Source: Paenibacillus sp. FSL H7-0737
Lineage (GTDB): Bacteria > Bacillota > Bacilli > Paenibacillales > Paenibacillaceae
DNA length: 64,000 nucleotides
Reading direction: 5' to 3'
Assembly (NCBI RefSeq): GCF_000758545.1
Contig: NZ_CP009279.1
Coordinates: forward strand, 4,712,001 to 4,776,000
Part shown: positions 3,514-50,969 of the stretch, one piece after another
How positions within the stretch are numbered: the first letter of the stretch is position 1
Layout: each line of letters opens with the position of its first letter
Translations under genes and position numbers: made by a program
The notes under the pieces: model-generated
Told to the model about the DNA's origin: nothing
The model's input: the letters and a program-made list of their open reading frames with translations, nothing else
Database searches by the model: none

Positions 3514-4764
3514 ATGAACTGGATGCATAAACTTCCGTTAAAACAAAGAATTGTTGCCGGATGTTACCTCGTTGCCGCACTATTTGCCATTCCTGTTTTA
3601 GTTACTTTTATGATCTTAGGCAACATTATTTTGGGTATTGTTCTAATCGTTGTTCTTGCTGCTCTAACTTTCCCAGTGGCCCGCTTTATCGAGAGAACGC
3701 TTACATCTTCTTTTGATGACATCGCGAATGTATCTCATAGTATTTCAAAAGGGGATTTTACTAGTAGAGCCGACGAGAACGGGTCTATGGGGGACGTAAG
3801 TCGTTCCTTTAATACTATGATTGACAAGCTCAAGAAGATTTTGACAGAAGCATCACAAATCACTCGTCAAGTTATGGATGCAAGCCGTGGAATCGAAGAT
3901 AAGAATCAGAATTTGAAAATTGTCATGGCACAGGTAGCCTCTTCGTCTAACGAGCTAGCTCTTGGTGCAAATGAAATATCTACGGATATCGCTGAAATGA
4001 CAGAATCCATTAAAGATATTGAGAATAAAGTATCCAATTATACGAACTCAACGAAAGAAATGAACAGACGTTCAATACATACATTAGAACTAGTTGAACA
4101 AGGACGGCAGTCCGTTGATACTCAAGCTGAAGGCATGCGCAAAAACATCCAGGCTACTCAAAAAGTAGCTGATACAATCGAAGCCCTGTCTCATAATGCT
4201 CGCGGAATTACGATGATTACAAAAACCATCACAGAGATCGCTGAGCAGACCAACCTCTTATCGCTGAATGCCTCCATCGAAGCAGCACGCGCCGGAGAGC
4301 ATGGTCGAGGTTTTGCTGTAGTCGCACAGGAGGTTCGTAAACTTGCCGAGGAATCAACAGCTTCAACGAAGGAAGTCTTTGGCTTAGTTCGGAGCATCGA
4401 AACTGATATCAAACAAGCGATTGACAATATCGCTATCAACGAAGAAGTCGTACAGGTACAGAATGAGATGATCACTCAATCTGCTCATATCTTTGCTCAA
4501 ATTGTGCAAAGTGTGCAGTATATTACCGAGCAAATCTCTTCCTTCTCTGCTGAAAGTGATCTGATGTTGGAAAGTGCCTTGAAAATTTCAAGTGCAATAG
4601 AGAATATCTCTGCAATCACACAGCAAACCGCTGCCGGCACCGAGGAAGTATCCGCGGCTATGAATGAACAAATTAATGCCCTGCAGTCCGTCGCTGAAGA
4701 AACTGAGAAAATGACACAGGCTGTGTTTAATCTACAGAAGACTATCCATATTTTCAAGTTTTAA
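3514..4764 (+). CDS. Methyl-accepting chemotaxis protein without extracellular sensor domain
   Basis: Chemoreceptor that signals to the CheA/CheW kinase complex. Two hydrophobic segments (about residues 13-33 and 35-54) are separated by only a few residues, so there is essentially no outside ligand-binding domain. A HAMP region follows ([15 protein letters not shown]), then a long coiled coil with the conserved signalling tip ([35 protein letters not shown]). ATG 3514 follows AAGGAGG at 3496-3502 with an 11-base spacer; the open frame extends upstream to 3388 but has no ribosome site there. A receptor of this shape may sense membrane or cytoplasmic state. It stands alone and ends at a strong terminator. 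Confidence 0.9.
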
Positions 4765-4832: not shown

Positions 4833-4957
4833 ATATCTATTATTTCATAGGTTGGACAAGACTTTCGTCAAAATTCGAGTTAATTTGCGAAAATATATTG
4901 ACAAAGGTACTCTAGGAATATATTGTAAAGGAAAATTCTTCTTATAAATTTTAAAAT

Positions 4958-5050
4958 TAATATTGGCAAAATCTTCGAAAGAGGATGACGCAAAACCATG
5001 GATCTACAGCCTCATTATTAATCAGAGGCCATGACTGCCAGGTTGCAGAA
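4958..5050 (+). ncRNA. Cyclic-di-GMP class I (GEMM) riboswitch aptamer
   Basis: The stretch shows the GEMM-I architecture. GGCAAAA (4965-4971) precedes a short P2 stem closed by a GAAA tetraloop (ATCTTC/GAGGAT, 4971-4986). The hallmark GACGCAAAA follows (4987-4995). A P3 arm comes next, with CATGGATCTACA, GCCTC/GAGGC and CCATG (4997-5033), and then the 3' strand GACTGCCAGGTTGCAG (5033-5048). The tetraloop and the ATCTAC receptor-like segment match the known tertiary contact of this class. It lies 130 bases upstream of the four-gene operon and is followed by an intrinsic terminator. Seen directly as a sequence pattern; ligand identity is inferred from class membership. Confidence 0.85.
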
Positions 5051-5058
5051 AACCAAGA

Positions 5059-5080
5059 CGACTGAACAATTGTTCAGTCT
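5059..5080 (+). other. Palindromic hairpin in riboswitch expression platform
   Basis: GACTGAACAATTGTTCAGTC is a perfect palindrome between the aptamer and the terminator. It could fold as a spacer hairpin in the leader RNA or act as a protein-binding site; its role is unknown. Confidence 0.5.
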
Positions 5081-5100
5081 CTATGGCGATTTATGCCACC

Positions 5101-5133
5101 AACCTGTGCCCTAATTCAGAGCACAGGTTTTCT
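5101..5133 (+). terminator. Riboswitch-controlled intrinsic terminator
   Basis: The stem AACCTGTGC / GCACAGGTT (5101-5109, 5121-5129) is followed by TTCTAATGTTT. The bases CAACCTG (5100-5106) are complementary to CAGGTTG (5039-5045) in the aptamer 3' strand. An antiterminator can therefore form when the aptamer is not folded, which predicts an OFF switch. The T-run is weak, so in vivo efficiency is uncertain. Confidence 0.72.
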
Positions 5134-5177
5134 AATGTTTGATTTTAAAATAACAATCAACTTGTGAGGTGTATTTT

Positions 5178-6812
5178 TTGAAGACAGTCGCAGATTACAT
5201 GTCGGAAGCACTACGGAACCTAGGAGTTACCCATTCCTTTGGTATTATTGGGAAATCCATTTGTCCTATTGTTCTTAAAATGGTAGATTACGGTATTGAA
5301 TTTATTCCTGGGAGACATGAGTCCAGTTCCGGCTTCGAAGCAGCCGGGTATGCGCTTAAAACTGGAAAACTAGGTGTAGCTTTTGGTACTTCAGGTCCTG
5401 GTGGAACAAACCTATTAACTGCAGCAGCACATGCTAAGGCTAACAACCTACCTGTCCTATTTATTACTGGCCATCAATCTATTAAAGAGCTTGGAATTCC
5501 CCAATGTCAGGACTCTACTTCTTTTCTAGCTGATTTAGCTGATATGTTTAGACCTGCCACCTTATATAGCAAGCTTATTGAACGTGGAGATCACTTTAAC
5601 ACAATCTTTAATCATGCCATATCCATTGCTTTGAGCGGTAATCGTGGTCCAGTTCACCTTTGTATTCCCTTTGATGTACAAACGGAATTGCTAGAGGAAT
5701 GTAATATTGTAATCCCTGAACGCGAATCACTGGTTAGCCATGCTAATATCGACCGTGTACTTGATGCTATAAATAACTCTAAGAATCCAATAATTATCGC
5801 GGGTAAAGGCGTTAACCGCTCAGGAGCACATAGTGAGCTAATTCAATTAGCGGAAACATTTAATATTCCTGTAGTTACATCTCCAGGTGGTAAAGGGGCT
5901 ATAGCTTGGGATCATCCACTCTATCACGGTCCAATTGGAGTAGGCGGTTGTACCCATGGGGATGACTTGCTGAATCAAAGTGATCTATTTATCGTTCTCG
6001 GGTCACGTTTAAGTGATATGACTATTTGTAATCTTAAAAGGGAAAATCATCCTGCAACATTAATTCAGTTTGATAGCGATCCGACTTTTGTCGGAAAAAT
6101 ATTGTTCTCTAAAACGATTCCAGTGACTGGAGATCTACGGGACAATCTAGTTTACTATCTCAATAATATTGACACGAACAACATCACAAAACGCGAAGCA
6201 CCGACAAATTCCGATTATACCGAAGAGCCTCCGATTTTACCAAACCTTTCACTTGCATCGGTCTTGAGTACGATGAGTGATTTGATTCCTTATAACAGCA
6301 CAGTCTTTGTTGATGATGGAAGTCACGGTTTCCATGCTGCGAAATGGTACAAGGTTAAGAAACCGGGCAGTTTTGTTTTCGATGCTTACTTTGCTTGTAT
6401 GGGTAATTCCATCGGAATGGCGATTGGTGCAAAGGTTGCTGCTCCAGAAGAAACGATCTTCTGCATTACAGGAGATGGCTGCTTTATGATGCTAGGCGCA
6501 GAGATTAACGCTGCTGTCTGCAAGGATATTCCTGTCATATTCATTGTTGTGAATAATAAACAGCTAGATATGGCTCTAAAAGGTATGGAAAAAACTACAG
6601 GACGTATTGACGGAACTATCTACGAAGTCCCTATGGATGCTGTGAAATTCGCAGAATCACTAGGCGCTAAGGGTTACAAATGTGAGACAGCGGAGGAGTT
6701 CGAAACAGCCATCAAGGACGCTGTTGCCATCAACCGTGTTGCCGTCATTGAACTGCTAACAGACCGTGATGAGGTCCCTCCGACTGCTCACCGTACTTTG
6801 AACCTAAATTAG
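5178..6812 (+). CDS. Thiamine diphosphate-dependent enzyme, acetolactate-synthase-like
   Basis: ThDP enzyme of the acetolactate synthase/decarboxylase superfamily, predicted to cleave a 2-oxoacid and transfer or release the aldehyde unit. The N-terminal PYR domain carries the activating glutamate in GRHESSS (about residue 48) and the SGPGGTN loop. A middle domain follows, and the C-terminal PP domain has the GDG...NN cofactor motif (GDGCFMM near 433, VVNN near 459). Its length of 544 residues is normal. The start is taken as TTG 5178, six bases after TGAGGTG, giving the family-typical KTVADYMSEAL; an alternative GTG lies at 5169. It is first in the operon behind the c-di-GMP riboswitch. Its residues do not identify the substrate; a housekeeping acetolactate synthase would normally sit with ilvN/ilvC, which are absent here. 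Confidence 0.85.
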   Translation: MKTVADYMSEALRNLGVTHSFGIIGKSICPIVLKMVDYGIEFIPGRHESSSGFEAAGYALKTGKLGVAFGTSGPGGTNLLTAAAHAKANNLPVLFITGHQSIKELGIPQCQDSTSFLADLADMFRPATLYSKLIERGDHFNTIFNHAISIALSGNRGPVHLCIPFDVQTELLEECNIVIPERESLVSHANIDRVLDAINNSKNPIIIAGKGVNRSGAHSELIQLAETFNIPVVTSPGGKGAIAWDHPLYHGPIGVGGCTHGDDLLNQSDLFIVLGSRLSDMTICNLKRENHPATLIQFDSDPTFVGKILFSKTIPVTGDLRDNLVYYLNNIDTNNITKREAPTNSDYTEEPPILPNLSLASVLSTMSDLIPYNSTVFVDDGSHGFHAAKWYKVKKPGSFVFDAYFACMGNSIGMAIGAKVAAPEETIFCITGDGCFMMLGAEINAAVCKDIPVIFIVVNNKQLDMALKGMEKTTGRIDGTIYEVPMDAVKFAESLGAKGYKCETAEEFETAIKDAVAINRVAVIELLTDRDEVPPTAHRTLNLN

Positions 6813-6822
6813 GAGGTCACTT

Positions 6823-7191
6823 ATGAAAGACAATGTAAACAGTGGTCTGAACCACTTCACGAATCTCTCTGGAGACTACGGAGCTAAAGCACTGGCTCCG
6901 ATTAAAGAACATTTCCCCGATTTGGCTGAATTTATTATGGGGAATGCCTACGGCGATATTTTTCAACGCAACACAATCGAAGCTGACTGGAAGGAAATCG
7001 CAGTTATCTCTGCCCTGATTTCGATGGGTCAGTTTGATCAATTGGGTGTTCATTATGTCATGGCTCTTCGTGTGGGAGTTACTGTAGAACAACTCAAAGG
7101 TATTCTATTACACTTAGTACCCGCTATAGGGGCACCTAGAATCATCACCGCTTTTAATATTCTTCTCGAAACGATTGAAGAAATAAAGTAA
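6823..7191 (+). CDS. Carboxymuconolactone decarboxylase (CMD/AhpD-like) family protein
   Basis: Small all-helical CMD-fold protein of 122 residues. The characteristic middle segment ISALISMGQFDQLGVHY followed by MALRVGVTVEQLKGILLHL is present. It lacks the CxxC pair of AhpD peroxidase partners, so a redox-disulfide role is unlikely; a lyase, decarboxylase or isomerase-like role is more plausible. AGGAGGT lies just upstream and the gap to the preceding gene is 10 bases, so it is translated from the same message as the ThDP enzyme. In this context it may act on the product of that enzyme; this is inference. Confidence 0.8.
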   Translation: MKDNVNSGLNHFTNLSGDYGAKALAPIKEHFPDLAEFIMGNAYGDIFQRNTIEADWKEIAVISALISMGQFDQLGVHYVMALRVGVTVEQLKGILLHLVPAIGAPRIITAFNILLETIEEIK

Positions 7192-7230
7192 CTATTTTCA
7201 GTAAATTAAAATATCGGGAGAGATGTTAAC

Positions 7231-7581
7231 GTGGGACAGTTTATTTTAAAGACAGACACTACTAAAAAAGTGATCAATATTGAGCTGGAAGGAACATTTT
7301 CTGAAGAAGATGGTCTGAAATCTATCCAAGCTTATCAACAAACTATTAATCCTATCACTCCAGCAGACTATGAATTACAAATCGACTGCAGAAAGCTAAA
7401 CGTAACTGCACCTGATGTTGTACCTCTTTTGGAAGGTTGCTTCGTAATGTTTAAGAATGATGGATTTGTAAAAGTAAATCTAACCCTTGAGAATAACCCA
7501 ATTCTTAAAATGCAGCTTGCTCGTCTGGGTCGTAAAGCAGGACTAGATAACATCGAGATCATTTCCACCGTTACAGCTTAA
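7231..7581 (+). CDS. Small STAS-like protein of unknown function
   Basis: A 116-residue protein not assigned to a family with confidence. The pattern of alternating strands and helices (VINIELEGTFSEEDG, ELQIDCRKLNV, GFVKVNLTLENNP) resembles a STAS/SpoIIAA-like fold, often used for protein-protein regulation. There are no signal peptide, membrane segments or obvious catalytic residues; single cysteines occur in DCRK and EGCF. It starts with GTG 7231 behind GGGAGAG, 9 bases upstream. It lies between the CMD-like and FabH-like genes and may be a scaffold, carrier or regulator for them. Confidence 0.62.
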   Translation: MGQFILKTDTTKKVINIELEGTFSEEDGLKSIQAYQQTINPITPADYELQIDCRKLNVTAPDVVPLLEGCFVMFKNDGFVKVNLTLENNPILKMQLARLGRKAGLDNIEIISTVTA

Positions 7582-7632
7582 TTCTTCTTATAACTAAAAA
7601 AACTATAGAGTTTTTCAGGAGGATTCATTCAT

Positions 7633-8625
7633 ATGACCGGAATTCGTATTCAAGACATTGATATCTATCATCCTAGTAATAAAGTTGGTAACGACTTTTT
7701 TATTAAGCATTTTGACGAAAAGGGTATTGATATCCGAGGTCTACTGACCACTTTAGGTCGTGATACGCGCTATAGCATTAAGAATGAGGAAGAAAATTCT
7801 CTTACGATGGCTTTTGAGGCTGCCAGTAATGTGTTGGATAAAAATGGTCTCACTGGCGCTGATATCGATCTTATTGCCTATGCAAGTCAAACTCCTGAAT
7901 ATATCTTTCCTACTAACTCTTTAATGATTCACCGTTTAATTAACGGCGCATCCCATACAATTTGTATAGATAGCAACGCTAACTGTGCAGGTATGACTGC
8001 TTCCGTAGAACAGGTGAGCCGTCAAATGCAAGCCAATCCTAGAATTAAACGTGCTTTGGTCATCGGATCCGATTATGTAGCACCTCATGCAGATAAGAAT
8101 GATCCAGTCTATTATGCTAACTTCGGTGATGCAGCTGCGGCAGTCCTTCTTGTGCGCGATGATAATGCGGTAGGCTTCATTGATTCTGTCTATCAAACAG
8201 ACACATGCGTTTATGGCAACTCCATGTTCCCGGCTGAAGGCTTGGCTAATCTGGGTAGAAAAGGCGTAGCGGCTGGAGAATTCAATGTGAAGTTCATTCC
8301 ATTTGATGATTCCATTTGCGTAGATGCTGCTTCTGAATCGATTCGCACGCTTCTATCAGATAACAACATAGCGCCTGAATCTATTAAAGCGGCCTGTTTC
8401 TCACAGCTTTCACTGCCTAATATCGTTGGTGTTTGTGAAAAAGTGGGTATTGATCGTGAGGTTGCGGTTTACATAGGTGATGAATTCGGGTACACCTCAA
8501 CCAGTAGCCCGTTTATCGCTCTACACAAAGCTATTACTACAGGAAAGATCGAACGCGGAGATAAAGTTCTGTTCTGGACAGTGGGCGCTGGATGGCAAAA
8601 CGTTGCATTTGTTATTGAATATTAA
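7633..8625 (+). CDS. FabH-like 3-oxoacyl-ACP synthase III homologue with altered active site
   Basis: Thiolase-fold enzyme of the ketoacyl synthase III type, 330 residues. The nucleophilic cysteine is present in NANCAGM (C118). The histidine and asparagine of the FabH triad (E. coli C112, H244, N274) are replaced: the HQAN-equivalent segment reads FSQLS (serine near 257) and the GNTS-equivalent reads GYTS (tyrosine near 287). The spacing between these two positions is exactly 30, as in FabH, so the alignment is solid. Decarboxylative condensation of malonyl-ACP needs H and N, so this protein more likely does acyl transfer or a non-decarboxylating condensation. CAGGAGG precedes ATG 7633. It is last in the c-di-GMP riboswitch operon and ends at a strong terminator. 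Confidence 0.83.
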   Translation: MTGIRIQDIDIYHPSNKVGNDFFIKHFDEKGIDIRGLLTTLGRDTRYSIKNEEENSLTMAFEAASNVLDKNGLTGADIDLIAYASQTPEYIFPTNSLMIHRLINGASHTICIDSNANCAGMTASVEQVSRQMQANPRIKRALVIGSDYVAPHADKNDPVYYANFGDAAAAVLLVRDDNAVGFIDSVYQTDTCVYGNSMFPAEGLANLGRKGVAAGEFNVKFIPFDDSICVDAASESIRTLLSDNNIAPESIKAACFSQLSLPNIVGVCEKVGIDREVAVYIGDEFGYTSTSSPFIALHKAITTGKIERGDKVLFWTVGAGWQNVAFVIEY

Positions 8626-8632
8626 GCGTTAC

Positions 8633-8685
8633 AACCTAAAAAGCGGCAGGCCAAGGATTATCCTTAGCTTGCCGCTTTTTAGGTT
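8633..8685. terminator. Bidirectional terminator between convergent genes
   Basis: AACCTAAAAAGCGGCA pairs with TGCCGCTTTTTAGGTT around an inner AAGGAT/ATCCTT hairpin. A- and T-tracts on both sides let it end both the riboswitch operon and the minus-strand glpK-HhH transcript. Confidence 0.88.
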
Positions 8686-8695
8686 GATCTGTTCT

Positions 8696-8911
8696 TTAGG
8701 ACTCGCTGGCAAAGGATAACCCCTTTACAGTGAGCGCACGCCGTAGTACATCAATCCCTTTTGGTCCCATCCCATGGAGCTGCAGAAGCTCTGACTCAGT
8801 GAGCTTACTGATTTGGTGAATCTGTGTATACCCAGCACCATGAAGTGCTCGAAGTGCAGGCTTAGATAGTCCACTCGGTAGATCAGATTCTGTTCCATTA
8901 AACATAGACAT
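8696..8911 (-). CDS. Small helix-hairpin-helix / alpha-CTD-like protein
   Basis: A 71-residue protein whose body (GLSKPALRALHGAGYTQI, then LTESELLQLHGMGPKGIDVL) matches the helix-hairpin-helix fold seen at the C-terminus of RNA polymerase alpha and in small DNA-binding proteins. ATG 8911 is chosen because AGGGAG lies 6 bases upstream; other in-frame starts (8929 GTG, 8917) sit on or before that site. It begins 14 bases after the glpK stop and is probably co-transcribed with it. DNA or nucleic-acid binding is inferred from the fold; no specific role is known. Confidence 0.75.
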   Translation of the reverse strand: MSMFNGTESDLPSGLSKPALRALHGAGYTQIHQISKLTESELLQLHGMGPKGIDVLRRALTVKGLSFASES

Positions 8912-8925
8912 ATGCATCTCCCTGA

Positions 8926-10419
8926 TCACTGATATCTTTCATGTTTTTCCCAGCCCATGGTACGCGCTACAGCGTCTTTCCAGGCGTTGTAACGTCGTTC
9001 ACGCTCATCTATACCCATTACAGGTGAAAAGACCCTCTCAGCTTTGTTAAAGCTTTCTAGCTGCTCTCTTGTCCAAACTCCTGAGGTTAATCCAGCCAGA
9101 AGTGCTGCTCCCAGCGCAGTCGTCTCCGCATATGTAGTTCGAGTAACTTCACTACCGAGGATATCAGACTGAAACTGCATCAGCAAATCATTACGAACCG
9201 CTCCACCATCTACACGAAGTCCGGTCAATGGCATGCCTGCATCTTTTTCCATCGCCCCAATTACATCTCTAGACTGAAATGCTAATGACTCTAACGTTGC
9301 TCTTACCAAATGCCCCGAGGTGGTTCCTCTAGTTAGACCGAAGACTGCTCCACGTGCATACATATCCCAATAAGGGGCACCTAGTCCAGTAAAAGCAGGT
9401 ACGACGACAACCCCTTCACTGTCCTCTACTTCCCGCGCTTTGTCTTCCGAGCCTGCCGGCTCCGTTATGAGTCCTAACCCCTCCTGAAGCCATTGTACAG
9501 CCGCTCCGGCTACAAACACACTGCCCTCGAGTGCATAATAGAGCTCATCCCCCATTCCCCATGCTACAGTGGTCAACAACCCATGACTGGAGACTACAGC
9601 TTCTGTACCTGTATTCATCAGAATAAAGCATCCAGTTCCATATGTGTTTTTGGCACTGCCGGGTTCAAGACAAGTATGTCCAAACAAAGCAGCTTGTTGA
9701 TCCCCCAATACAGAGTGAATAGGTATTTCTGTCCCGAACCACTGCGCGTCTGCTGCTCCAAATTCACTACCGGACATCCTCACTTCTGGCAGGATGGAGC
9801 GTGGTACACGAAGCTCCTCCATTAGCACTTCGTCCCAGCAGCGCTCATGTAGATTATATAGCATCGTACGCGATGCATTAGTTACATCAGTAGCATGTAC
9901 AGCCCCGCCAGTAAGCTTCCAGATTAGCCAGCTGTCTACTGTCCCAGCTAGTAGCTCGCCATTATTCGCCCGCTCTCGTGCGCCTTCTACATGATCAAGA
10001 ATCCAGGAGAATTTTGTTGCAGAAAAATAAGCATCCACAACGAGTCCCGTCTTGCTAGCAATGAGTCCCTCTAACCCCTTACTCTTGATCTCTTCACACA
10101 GCTCTGCAGTACGTCTGTCCTGCCACACAATCGCAGGATAAATCGGCTTGCCTGTTGCTCTATCCCAGATCAGGGCCGTTTCCCTCTGATTTGTAATTCC
10201 AATGGAATATACTTCCTGAGGTGTTATCCCGCCCTGAGTAATCGCATCTCTTGCAGCTGCAAGCTGTGACGCCCAAATTTGCTCTGGGTCATGCTCCACC
10301 CAGCCAGGGTGTGGGAAAGATTGTTCAACCTCATATTGCCCTTGTGAGACGATTCTAGCGTCCTCATCGAACACTATGGCTCGTGAACTGGTAGTCCCTT
10401 GGTCTAAAGATAAAATCAT
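8926..10419 (-). CDS. glpK: Glycerol kinase
   Basis: Phosphorylates glycerol to sn-glycerol 3-phosphate in the cytoplasm. FGGY-kinase features are clear: the N-terminal phosphate loop DQGTTSSRAIVFD, the glycerol-contact region NQRETALIWDR, GDQQAALFG and the C-terminal DGGAVRND. At 497 residues it has the usual length. ATG 10419 lies 7 bases from GGGAGG; the longer TTG reading at 10434 would overlap that site. No glpF or glpD is adjacent, so the gene stands apart from a classical glp operon. A small HhH protein follows. Confidence 0.96.
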   Translation of the reverse strand: MILSLDQGTTSSRAIVFDEDARIVSQGQYEVEQSFPHPGWVEHDPEQIWASQLAAARDAITQGGITPQEVYSIGITNQRETALIWDRATGKPIYPAIVWQDRRTAELCEEIKSKGLEGLIASKTGLVVDAYFSATKFSWILDHVEGARERANNGELLAGTVDSWLIWKLTGGAVHATDVTNASRTMLYNLHERCWDEVLMEELRVPRSILPEVRMSGSEFGAADAQWFGTEIPIHSVLGDQQAALFGHTCLEPGSAKNTYGTGCFILMNTGTEAVVSSHGLLTTVAWGMGDELYYALEGSVFVAGAAVQWLQEGLGLITEPAGSEDKAREVEDSEGVVVVPAFTGLGAPYWDMYARGAVFGLTRGTTSGHLVRATLESLAFQSRDVIGAMEKDAGMPLTGLRVDGGAVRNDLLMQFQSDILGSEVTRTTYAETTALGAALLAGLTSGVWTREQLESFNKAERVFSPVMGIDERERRYNAWKDAVARTMGWEKHERYQ

Positions 10420-25753: not shown

Positions 25754-26854
25754 TTAGCGTACCGGAGTACCGCTGATACATACATTATCTCCGAGCACTT
25801 TTACTTCCAATCCCTCCAGAGAAATCGCATCCTTCATTAGCTCTATACCAGGAAATACGAACGTCCCTTTCGCTTCAGCACCACCGCCAACAATCTTTGG
25901 AGCGAAAAAGAGAATCACTCGATCAACTAGCCCACTCTCCAGCATCGCACCATTTAGCGTGCCTCCGCCTTCAAGTAAAATCGATCCGATTTCCATTTCA
26001 CCGAGTGTTACCATAGCAGCCTTCAAATCCACCCGTGGTCCTGCTCCGCTAACAATGATTTGCACACCTGCTTGAAGAAGTGCTGCTTTCTTTTCATCAT
26101 CTGCGGCTTCAGTTGTCACGATGATAGTAGGCGCTAGACCGTCACTTACAACTGCTGAATCCAAAGGAATACGTAGTCCAGAATCAATCACAATCCGTAT
26201 CGGATGAATACCCGGCACTTCCGTTCTTGTAGTCAGTGAAGGATTATCTGCAATCACTGTGTTCACACCGACCATTATTCCCTGATGCCGATGCCGCAGC
26301 GTATGTACGATCTCCCGCGCTTCACCATTTGAAATCCATTTACTGTCACCAGATTTGGTAGCTAGGTTACCATCCAGCGTGCTGGCACTCTTGAGCGTAA
26401 CAAAAGGCTGTTTTGTCAAAATATACTTGATAAAACGCTCATTCAACCGCAGCGCACGTTCACGCAGCAACCCTACTTCTACTTCAATGCCATGCTCACG
26501 CAGCATTTGAACGCCGCGACCCGCAACCTGAGGGTTAGGGTCTTCACAAGCGACTACCACTCTGGCTACTCCCTCGTCGATCAGCCTTTGGCTGCAGGGC
26601 GGAGTCTTGCCATAGTGACTGCAAGGTTCCAGTGTTACGTAGGCAGTGCTGCCCTGTGCTTGACCGGCCGCCATATTCAAGGCATGAACCTCAGCATGAC
26701 CTGTTCCGCGCTGCAAATGAGTTCCAAGTCCAATCATCGCTCCATTCTTTACAACAACACAGCCAACAACAGGGTTAATTCCTGTCTGTCCTTGGGCCCG
26801 TTCTGCCATATCCAGCGCTAACGACATATAAAACTCGTCATTCATATTATCCAT
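25754..26854 (-). CDS. ribD: Bifunctional riboflavin deaminase/reductase RibD
   Basis: Performs the second and third riboflavin steps. The N-terminal deaminase has the zinc motif HAEVHALNMA and PCSHYGKTPPC; the C-terminal reductase has SGDSKWISNGEAR and GSILLEGGGTLNGAMLESGL. ATG 26854 lies 5 bases after GGAGGA; the upstream ATG at 26872 precedes that site. It is first gene of ribD-ribE-ribBA-ribH, 46 bases after the riboswitch terminator. Confidence 0.96.
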   Translation of the reverse strand: MDNMNDEFYMSLALDMAERAQGQTGINPVVGCVVVKNGAMIGLGTHLQRGTGHAEVHALNMAAGQAQGSTAYVTLEPCSHYGKTPPCSQRLIDEGVARVVVACEDPNPQVAGRGVQMLREHGIEVEVGLLRERALRLNERFIKYILTKQPFVTLKSASTLDGNLATKSGDSKWISNGEAREIVHTLRHRHQGIMVGVNTVIADNPSLTTRTEVPGIHPIRIVIDSGLRIPLDSAVVSDGLAPTIIVTTEAADDEKKAALLQAGVQIIVSGAGPRVDLKAAMVTLGEMEIGSILLEGGGTLNGAMLESGLVDRVILFFAPKIVGGGAEAKGTFVFPGIELMKDAISLEGLEVKVLGDNVCISGTPVR

Positions 26855-26899
26855 CTCGTTCCTCCTATCCACTTACTGTCTATCTGATGCGTAAAAACA

Positions 26900-26941: not shown

Positions 26942-27074
26942 TGCGAGAGTTTATCGGCAGTCCAAATAAAAGTGTGCGTAAATAACCGTCAAACGACGGC
27001 AATTGTGAAATATCGCACATAATAAATGAAAATACTGCAGTCCACCTGTCTATTACAGACAAGCGGTTAACCTC

Positions 27075-27242
27075 TCCTTCTTCCATCCAGACTATACTGT
27101 CGGTCCCGGAATTTCACCGGGTCCACCGTTCGCGTCAACAACGCGAGCCGGGTAGCGGACTAAGTGTGGTAGATAAACTTAATAAATAAGCACTCTACAA
27201 CAACATCACCGCCGGTAGGGAATTGCACCCTGCCCTGAAGGA
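27075..27242 (-). ncRNA. FMN riboswitch (RFN element) of the rib operon
   Basis: Read on the minus strand the conserved blocks appear in order: TCCTTCAGGGCAGGGTG, AATTCCCTACCGGCGGTGAT, a variable arm, CCCGGTGAAATTCCGGGACC, GACAGTATAGTCTGGATG and the closing GAAGGA. Outer pairing TCCTTC/GAAGGA closes the six-way junction. It precedes ribD by 220 bases. A possible promoter TTGCAT (27309-27314) with AT-rich -10 lies just upstream. Confidence 0.95.
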
Positions 27243-27446
27243 TTGATCCTTTATTTAATTGAGGTTCAAGTTTTCCTTACTAACAAAATTATCACTTACA
27301 CCTTCGAAATGCAAGTGCGTTTTATATATTTACTTAAAATTTGTAACTTAATTCTGAGAGGTATGGTGATTACTAGAAGAAACGACATGGTAATATATAG
27401 CCTGCAAATGTACAGTTAAAACCCATTCCATACATTTACATAACAA

Positions 27447-49526: not shown

Positions 49527-50486
49527 TCAGAGCGTTTGTGCTTTAGATTGTTGACTCGATATGAAGAATAAAGCGGTCCAGATCAACGCGAACCCGATAA
49601 TTTGCGGTAGCGTGACGAGCTGCTGGAATACGATCCAGTTAATGATTACTCCCGTCATAGGAAAGCTTAGTTCAGCCAATGTAGCAAAGGAAGCTTTGGT
49701 AGTGCTGAGTCCTTTGTAATACATCAGCATACTGAGTAGTCCTGGCAGCAGAGCCTGCAGCAACAAATTAATGGCGATGGCAGCAGATGCACCAAATCCA
49801 CCATTAATCTGCCAAGGAGCACCTTCTAATGTGGTGATAATGAAAAGCAACGGCAGCGCCAATATAAATCTTAGGGAAGTCACTGTCTCATATTTCATAG
49901 ACCCAAGCAGATAACGTCCCATTACTGTTGAGCCACCCCACAATGCGGCCGCTCCTAAGGCCATCAGACTGCTAACACCGATGAAGTTGTTCACATGTCC
50001 GAATGGAATACTCCAGCCAAAGGTCAGCAGATAGGTTCCTACCAGTGCCACAATAATGAGGATTCCGAAATTTTTAGGCAGACGTTCTTTAAGAATTAAG
50101 GCTGCAAGCCCGATAGCGAATATCGGCTGAAGCTTTTGCAGCAACAGCACAGCATTTAAATCCCCACTGGAGAGTGCCATCGTAAATAGAATTGTCGCCC
50201 CGGCAGAACCTCCCCAGGAAACAATTAGCAAAGCTCCAATCTGGCGAAATCCAATGCCTTTTAGCTCCGCCCGGTGACGCCAAAGAACAGGGGAAGCAGC
50301 CAAGAAAAGCACCACATGCTCCAAAAGAACAATTTGCGATGAGGTCAAAGATTTTAAGAGGATAATACGAAAGAGCGGATCAACGCCCCATAGTGCTGCA
50401 CCGAACACAACGAGCCAAAACCCACTGCGTAACGGTGACGTGCTGCTTACCTTATTAGCTGATGATGAAGCTGTTACATTACTCAT
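49527..50486 (-). CDS. EamA/DMT-family transporter under FMN riboswitch, likely flavin transporter
   Basis: Ten-helix drug/metabolite-transporter family protein with two EamA halves (LVVFGAALWGVDPLFRI, SLMALGAAALWGGSTVMGRY), 319 residues. The gene is preceded by an FMN riboswitch and a terminator with nothing between, so expression responds to flavin level. EamA proteins in the RibN and ImpX groups are predicted or shown riboflavin carriers, so riboflavin import is the best guess; export cannot be excluded. AAGGAG lies 9 bases before the ATG. Confidence 0.88.
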   Translation of the reverse strand: MSNVTASSSANKVSSTSPLRSGFWLVVFGAALWGVDPLFRIILLKSLTSSQIVLLEHVVLFLAASPVLWRHRAELKGIGFRQIGALLIVSWGGSAGATILFTMALSSGDLNAVLLLQKLQPIFAIGLAALILKERLPKNFGILIIVALVGTYLLTFGWSIPFGHVNNFIGVSSLMALGAAALWGGSTVMGRYLLGSMKYETVTSLRFILALPLLFIITTLEGAPWQINGGFGASAAIAINLLLQALLPGLLSMLMYYKGLSTTKASFATLAELSFPMTGVIINWIVFQQLVTLPQIIGFALIWTALFFISSQQSKAQTL

Positions 50487-50567: not shown

Positions 50568-50615
50568 ATTATCAATAAAGACGTACAGGATAGACTCCTA
50601 GCGCCTTTATCTTAT

Positions 50616-50759
50616 GATCCTCTCCCATCCGGACTTTACCGTCGGCTCTGGATTCACACCAGATCAGTCACTTCTCTGCAAGCAGAACAAGTGAGTCGCG
50701 GGCTCAGTTCGCTTTGAACATTACCGCCGGTTGGGAATTTCACCCTACCCCGAGAATCT
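50616..50759 (-). ncRNA. Second FMN riboswitch (RFN element)
   Basis: Minus-strand blocks in the standard order: GATTCTCGGGGTAGGGTG, AATTCCCAACCGGCGGTAAT, GAGCCCGCGACTCAC, ATCTGGTGTGAATCCAGAG, CCGACGGTAAAGTCCGGATG and GGAGAGGATC. All universally conserved cores of the class are seen. It controls the EamA transporter gene. Confidence 0.95.
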
Positions 50760-50969
50760 TGTATTCCGTTGTTTTTTTCACAATCTCAGAATAAACCTCT
50801 TCTTGCCATTCGTCCAGTACTTTATGAAAATATACATAAAATTTTCATGTATCACAGCTTTTCTTACATATTTTTTTCGTTATTGTTCTACTGTCCCATC
50901 CCAAAAAATCTGTATAATGAAATTATGTTTATTTTTCCATAGTTTAGGAATTTTTCTAAGGAGGTTGTT

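Follow-up and report, generated by a model that had tools for sequence, protein, structure and literature searches.

Riboswitches of the cyclic diguanylate (c-di-GMP)-I class, or GEMM-I (RF01051), stand before genes for motility, adhesion and chemotaxis, and CqsA and CqsS form a synthase-receptor pair for alpha-hydroxyketone quorum sensing. Further points of comparison are a Vibrio quorum-sensing receptor with 6 transmembrane (TM) helices, as given in the accessible part of PMC4821796, and autoinducer-2 (AI-2) chemotaxis and autoaggregation in Escherichia coli, as given in that of PMC5056481. We have analysed DNA of 64,000 nucleotides (nt) from Paenibacillus sp. FSL H7-0737 (contig NZ_CP009279.1, positions 4,712,001 to 4,776,000; this whole stretch is called the window), in which a leader with the aptamer, terminator and antiterminator platform of c-di-GMP-I riboswitches is followed by 4 genes, the last of them for a FabH-like protein with a changed active site; we have coined the name KAS* for its subfamily. 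We observed that the core of nearly all sampled loci that carry such genes is KAS* with one of 2 partners, a STAS-fold protein or a methyl-accepting chemotaxis protein (MCP, a chemoreceptor); the chemoreceptor link and the STAS/KAS* core of 2 genes were absent from an earlier interpretation of the window made from its letters alone (below, the sequence-only reading). What sets the leader apart from known c-di-GMP-I riboswitches is the set downstream, KAS* plus STAS or MCP with or without a thiamine diphosphate (ThDP)-dependent enzyme, a gene combination not described in the open-access literature that we searched (titles and beginnings of abstracts, with most subscription journals outside the scope). 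The genes of the window operon are as follows.

5178-6812, + strand: ThDP-dependent enzyme, acetolactate-synthase-like, 544 amino acids, TTG start; PF02776, PF00205 and PF02775 (TPP_enzyme N, M and C)
6823-7191, + strand: CMD-family protein, PcaC-like, 122 amino acids; PF02627 at 2e-11, PDB 4g9q
7231-7581, + strand: STAS-fold partner protein, 116 amino acids; AlphaFold model and Foldseek, no Pfam match
7633-8625, + strand: KAS*, FabH-fold, 330 amino acids; ACP_syn_III and its C-terminal domain (Pfam); Cys118, Ser257 and Tyr287

The sequence-only reading had described a ThDP enzyme and CMD-like, STAS-like and FabH-like proteins here, and all 4 genes were found in place. Its expectation that they are conserved together was likewise borne out, as a scan of genome contigs with the FabH-like protein returned 50 loci, 45 of which (L005-L049) hold all 4 genes in the same order. 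The 4 genes as the unit were nevertheless rejected, since KAS* next to a STAS or an MCP gene is an arrangement of far wider occurrence.

The AlphaFold model of KAS* (predicted local distance difference test, pLDDT, 93.5) gave TM-scores of 0.84-0.92 in its 20 best PDB matches, all of them FabH/KASIII proteins, with which KAS* shares the fold and the nucleophilic Cys (FabH/KASIII as in TIGR00747 and PRK09352). It differs from them in having Ser and Tyr where FabH has His and Asn. We followed these positions in 80 KAS* loci, a hand-picked, non-random sample of 49 from Clostridiaceae (of 78 places found) and 31 from Paenibacillaceae, the window's own family, the latter chosen among the matches listed and with close orthologues of the window excluded except L218. 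Cys was present in 80/80, Ser at the FabH His position in 79/80 (the other has Phe) and Tyr at the FabH Asn position in 80/80. An alignment of 67 KAS* sequences, which overlap the 80 loci, had N115, C118, Q258 and Y287 invariant, with position 257 being Ser in 66 and Thr in 1. With 2 of the 3 catalytic residues of FabH exchanged across the subfamily as sampled, the "thiolase-fold acyl enzyme" of the sequence-only reading stands as to the FabH fold and is not supported as to a standard condensing activity. The fold by itself, with the TM-scores above, would suit a normal beta-ketoacyl-acyl carrier protein (ACP) synthase III for fatty-acid initiation. Yet, besides the loss of His and Asn, the scores of KAS* lie far below the curated FabH cut-offs (TIGR00747, 108.2 vs 292.1; PRK09352, 120.5 vs 249), and the window's genome has other FabH-type genes, the paralogues L003 and L004, that keep Cys, His and Asn. 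To judge by these comparisons the sequence already contradicts such a role, to which we attach hardly any probability.

In the window's own family 176 of 394 genomes gave KAS* matches, as did 64 of 146 in Clostridiaceae and 7 of 398 in a phylum-wide draw, all at E <= 1e-60; the window's genome itself carries another STAS/KAS* pair at 5.91 Mb. Named members of the family carry fatty-acid-synthesis names. Relatives of KAS* also occur on large plasmids of Jeotgalibacillus, Brevibacillus, Paenibacillus and Alkaliphilus (L134-L138); 2 of these adjoin genes for nicotinate phosphoribosyltransferase and phosphoribosyl pyrophosphate (PRPP) synthetase, and no further partner was found in the 6 plasmid records, two of which are alike.

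Within 700 bp of KAS*, a STAS-fold gene was present in 45/80 loci and an MCP gene in 31/80, both in 0/80 and neither in 4/80. The 31 MCP-linked loci are all clostridial, and STAS genes accompany KAS* at 15 of the 49 loci from Clostridiaceae and at 30 of the 31 from Paenibacillaceae. All 47 STAS matches lie within that distance, be it before KAS*, after it or on the other strand; at L203 and L209 KAS* is flanked by a STAS gene on each side. In the 49 clostridial loci, MCP genes occupied 31 of 98 positions at a gene offset of ±1 from KAS*, vs 7 of 462 at ±2 to 6, for which the Fisher p (2e-19) should be taken as a rough guide, the rows being related by descent (the offset counts as a whole cover 78 of the 80 loci, L197 and L200 being left out). 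A tree of 82 KAS* sequences required at least 5 changes between STAS and MCP partners, with partnerless rows excluded.

Mutually exclusive partners of this sort are what would be expected of alternative readers of one input, and KAS* may then be a cytosolic sensor of the acyl-CoA or acyl-ACP state that docks on an MCP or a STAS protein as alternative outputs, its Cys being acylated or its pocket binding an acyl ligand; it would be a metabolic input and not a synthase. The active site, rigid (N115, C118, Q258 and Y287 in 67/67) despite the replacement of 2 catalytic residues, points the same way. Chemistry is suggested instead by the ThDP and CMD enzymes that accompany KAS* in clusters of Paenibacillaceae. 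Since the exclusion of STAS by MCP speaks for the sensor role as much as for a synthase, we regard the sensor as a serious contender, if a somewhat unlikely one; the receptors, described below, bear on it in both directions.

The STAS-fold protein of the window was correctly named in the sequence-only reading as regards fold, its AlphaFold model (pLDDT 90.9) giving TM-scores of 0.64-0.70 to SpoIIAA and RsbS by Foldseek. It differs from these proteins in pairing with KAS* and in having no detectable Pfam STAS match; among 11 members of this fold group no Pfam STAS family was found at E up to 10, and only 4 unrelated weak families appeared. In the window protein Pro stands, by eye, at the position of the SpoIIAA serine, which bears on the idea of a phospho-switch. 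KAS* could also acylate its partner, STAS or MCP, by way of Cys118 and thereby tune signalling, a proposal with which the exclusive pairing with one of 2 proteins agrees. Q95 is, however, the sole invariant column across 43 STAS sequences, so that no acceptor is evident, and we know of no precedent, which also counts against protein acylation; we consider it very improbable.

The window itself has a chemoreceptor gene before the operon.

3514-4764, + strand: MCP chemoreceptor with HAMP and signalling domain (Pfam MCPsignal 3.3e-37, HAMP)

The listed open reading frame (ORF) begins at TTG 3388, and ATG 3514 is the start used in the relative L218. TM helices are predicted at residues 53-77 and 78-103 of the long ORF, with almost no loop between them, and an orthologue is present at 15 of the 18 four-gene loci that bear the riboswitch. 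It should be noted that our TM counts are hydropathy estimates from a script of our own, not a trained predictor, in which long hydrophobic stretches were split in two. By these estimates the KAS*-adjacent MCP has 4-6 TM helices near its N-terminus in 28 of 31 loci, and the count for 9 further MCP ORFs of clostridial loci is 0-2 (4-6 in 0/9); L157 has 2 MCP ORFs near KAS*, neither of them multi-TM. The MCPs of clusters with a ThDP enzyme (10/10), like that of the window, have 2 TM segments joined by a loop of at most 23 residues, a topology that the window's genome shows in 2 of its 24 MCP matches, the window's MCP among them; 3 of the 24 (L235, L238 and L242) have internal stops and were counted as soluble. 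The linked MCPs thus look to be receptors without an outside sensor domain, facing inward or into the membrane, as would suit a ligand that the cell itself makes. The lack of an outside domain would equally suit a cytosolic sensor, while the multi-TM region suggests a membrane ligand over a cytosolic protein. Among 146 Clostridiaceae genomes KAS* was confined to those with CheA (64/131, vs 0/15 without CheA; Fisher p 1.3e-4), an association weakened by incomplete genomes and by descent.

The clostridial KAS*-MCP pair resembles CqsA/CqsS in that a possible synthase stands beside a multi-TM membrane receptor, and differs in that the receptor is a chemoreceptor and the candidate synthase has the KASIII fold, the families being others. 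In the accessible part of PMC4845359, CA_C0814, CA_C0815 and CA_C0816 of Clostridium acetobutylicum, annotated as KASIII, MCP and lipase, fall together in 2 adhE mutants, to 0.11, 0.13 and 0.17 of the control in one and to 0.02, 0.04 and 0.04 in the other. CA_C0814 is a candidate KAS*, and if it is one the joint fall speaks for the proposal made below. The lipase CA_C0816 invites comparison with the alpha/beta hydrolases (named by eye) that lie within 3 genes of KAS* in 4 of 78 loci (L142, L145, L148 and L162), which are too few to build on.

The ThDP enzyme of the window has its best PDB sequence matches in BbmA, CsmA and AHAS. It shares the 3 TPP domains with BbmA, CsmA and the large subunit of acetolactate synthase, and is distinguished from the last by a score below the equivalog cut-off (TIGR00118, 303.1 bits vs 538.35) and by a small-subunit gene not being among the 4 genes of the window. 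The literature searched held no explanatory paper for BbmA or CsmA, and hence no substrate to borrow. The CMD protein exceeds the gathering score of PF02627 (44.1 over 23) and falls below the cut-off of the PcaC equivalog (TIGR02425, 42.7 vs 155.7). Other Paenibacillaceae have a second type of cluster, seen at 12 loci, in which STAS and KAS* follow a ThDP enzyme gene; 9 of these clusters begin with an MCP, and in 7 of the 12 a GAF-like gene (144-153 amino acids, by eye) lies between the MCP and ThDP gene positions. Following the idea in the sequence-only reading, the operon could be an ordinary small-molecule pathway, whose ThDP enzyme, CMD decarboxylase and FabH-like enzyme would yield a secreted ketone or acyl product, and the chemoreceptors would then be incidental. 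This agrees with the joint occurrence of the 4 genes described above and with the fact that an MCP is never the direct neighbour of KAS* in Paenibacillaceae. A ThDP gene of this kind is absent, however, from 67 of the 80 KAS* loci, and in Clostridiaceae an MCP adjoins KAS* far more often than the local background would give; we think an ordinary pathway unlikely.

The elements of the leader that precede the window operon are listed here.

4955-5050, + strand: c-di-GMP-I (GEMM-I) riboswitch aptamer (RF01051, 74.0 bits vs a gathering score of 35, E 1.2e-12)
5039-5045, + strand: CAGGTTG, aptamer strand and antiterminator half, complementary to CAACCTG at 5100-5106
5060-5079, + strand: perfect inverted repeat of 20 nt in the aptamer-terminator linker (sequence and minimum-free-energy fold)
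5100-5131, + strand: intrinsic terminator hairpin and T tract, -14.8 kcal/mol, with CAACCTG overlapping its 5' arm

The covariance-model match and the predicted hairpin uphold the aptamer and the terminator that the sequence-only reading had placed before the 4 genes. In ViennaRNA folds the antiterminator (CAGGTTG:CAACCTG) is the minimum-energy structure for transcripts ending at 5110-5120, and the terminator wins for ends at 5128 and beyond, which puts the predicted switch between 5120 and 5128. The expression platform is accordingly predicted to consist of mutually exclusive structures through the 7-nt overlap of antiterminator and terminator. Binding of c-di-GMP should keep CAGGTTG in the aptamer and so favour termination, that is, an OFF switch; the direction put forward earlier, expression at low c-di-GMP, is likely the correct one by these predicted folds. 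Leaders of relatives have terminator hairpins at the corresponding place. The aptamer end has ACCTG or CAACCTG as its complement in 10 of 17 of their aptamer leaders (L005 was left out of 18) and another 5-mer in 2, a lone 5-mer being a weak match; 5 have none.

The further expectation that GEMM-I stands upstream in related neighbourhoods held in part: the aptamer precedes 18 of the 45 four-gene loci (by motif, with covariance-model E of 2.5e-9 or better) and not the other 27. As only 18 of 45 have it, the operon is wider than the riboswitch within Paenibacillus, and GEMM-I as a fixed part of the operon was rejected for this genus. Two aptamer-less leaders that we viewed by eye have a TTGACA-type promoter and a short leader instead. 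Another known riboswitch was considered for the leaders of this pabuli/amylolyticus type and set aside, neither GEMM-I nor any other being found by Rfam in the 5 of the 27 that were submitted (L020, L029, L041, L042 and L047).

GEMM-I before KAS* extends to Clostridiaceae, beyond what the sequence-only reading had covered. With a covariance model (R1) built from 8 aptamers of the window's genome, the window's own included, 24 of the 80 loci were found to have GEMM-I at the head of the KAS* operon, on the same strand and 42-216 nt before the first detected gene; at L209 the aptamer lies 657 nt before the ThDP gene with a GAF-like gene between. By architecture these are KAS*-MCP (11), MCP-ThDP-STAS-KAS* (7), STAS-KAS* (4), GAF-ThDP-STAS-KAS* (1) and ThDP-CMD-STAS-KAS* (1). 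Only one unlinked match at E <= 0.01 occurred in the 1.19 Mb of KAS* loci. Rfam, applied to 27 of the 80 loci, found GEMM-I in 11 (L196, L197, L198, L200, L203, L216, L161, L174, L182, L158 and L175), the identical set to that of R1. The aptamers of L196 (11786-11868, - strand) and L200 (2810-2891, + strand), before MCP-ThDP-STAS-KAS* operons, have RF03167 (c-di-GMP-I-GGC) as their best family, and their ligand preference may be different. The window's genome has 9 GEMM-I matches in total, among them tandem aptamers (712531-712611 and 712720-712800; L061 and L057) before one gene that looks by eye to encode a secreted protein.

Our tentative proposal, quite possible and the likeliest of the readings considered here, is that these loci encode a module of the motile state, repressed by c-di-GMP, whose KAS* produces a signal derived from an acyl group, internal or in the membrane, that a chemoreceptor reads. 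The window operon would be the Paenibacillus form, with KAS* constant and its partner being either a protein of STAS fold or a chemoreceptor that lacks an outside sensor domain. At high c-di-GMP the aptamer would hold CAGGTTG, the terminator would form and the module would be off; in motile cells with low c-di-GMP it would be made. The KAS* Cys would then take an acyl group and transfer it to a small acceptor to give a hydrophobic signal, the acceptor in Paenibacillus and Cohnella-like bacteria possibly being an acyloin or 2-hydroxy-keto compound from the ThDP enzyme. Chemoreceptors embedded in the membrane or facing the cytosol would read this signal, and cells would steer by, or gauge, their own compound. 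The aptamer, the operons, the fold and residues of KAS*, its partner linkage and its confinement to CheA-bearing genomes among the Clostridiaceae sampled are observations; from these we infer catalysis, product, the relation of receptor to ligand and the direction of control. More doubtful is the broader claim of a new self-signalling class, in which a Cys-Ser-Tyr FabH-fold enzyme would make a hydrophobic compound read by adjacent membrane-embedded chemoreceptors, motile Bacillota with low c-di-GMP would perform taxis on their own signal, and c-di-GMP would silence signal and receptor alike by way of one riboswitch. The AI-2 system has gene families other than those of the KAS* module, and its receptor linkage is different as well. 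What AI-2 taxis in E. coli has in common with our proposal is movement guided by a self-made compound.

Several observations weigh against a signal made by KAS* and read by chemoreceptors. In Paenibacillaceae, MCP genes occupy 0 of 58 positions flanking KAS* vs 8 of 284 further out, and the MCP link there rests on the 9 of 12 ThDP-cluster heads and on the MCP upstream of the window operon, which lies before the riboswitch and by appearance belongs to a separate transcript. Forty-five of the 80 KAS* genes have STAS and not an MCP beside them, the STAS partner finds no explanation in a diffusible signal, and L149, L155, L165 and L212 have neither partner. The ThDP enzymes of the 2 cluster types are only 26-28% identical and so may not make one product, and with Ser in place of His and Tyr in place of Asn the protein may have lost catalysis. 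GEMM-I was not found by the R1 model in 56 of the 80 KAS* loci, nor by covariance model, at E up to 1, in the 27 four-gene Paenibacillus operons of the pabuli/amylolyticus type.

Other features of the window are given for completeness.

8633-8686, + strand: likely terminator after the operon, an inverted repeat with T/A tracts (by eye)
8696-8929, - strand: ORF of 77 amino acids after the operon, helix-hairpin-helix-like by eye, no Pfam match
27071-27246, - strand: flavin mononucleotide (FMN) riboswitch, 105 bits, before a ribD-like ORF at 25754-26872 (name by eye)
50613-50761, - strand: FMN riboswitch, 117 bits, before an EamA/DMT permease-like ORF at 49527-50486 (name by eye)

In summary, each part of the module is of a known kind, and the combination and the KAS* site are apparently undescribed. 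The inputs of chemoreceptors without an outside sensor domain are, to our knowledge, mostly unknown, and the linkage described here offers candidate internal or membrane ligands for them. It also hints at what a large FabH-like family, whose named members have carried names from fatty-acid synthesis, may do, and ties c-di-GMP directly to an acyl module coupled to chemoreceptors. Being so small, the KAS*-MCP pair under a single riboswitch lends itself to direct testing by genetics and metabolite analysis. If our proposal is true, swimming cells of these bacteria may make, and follow, a chemical signal of their own.

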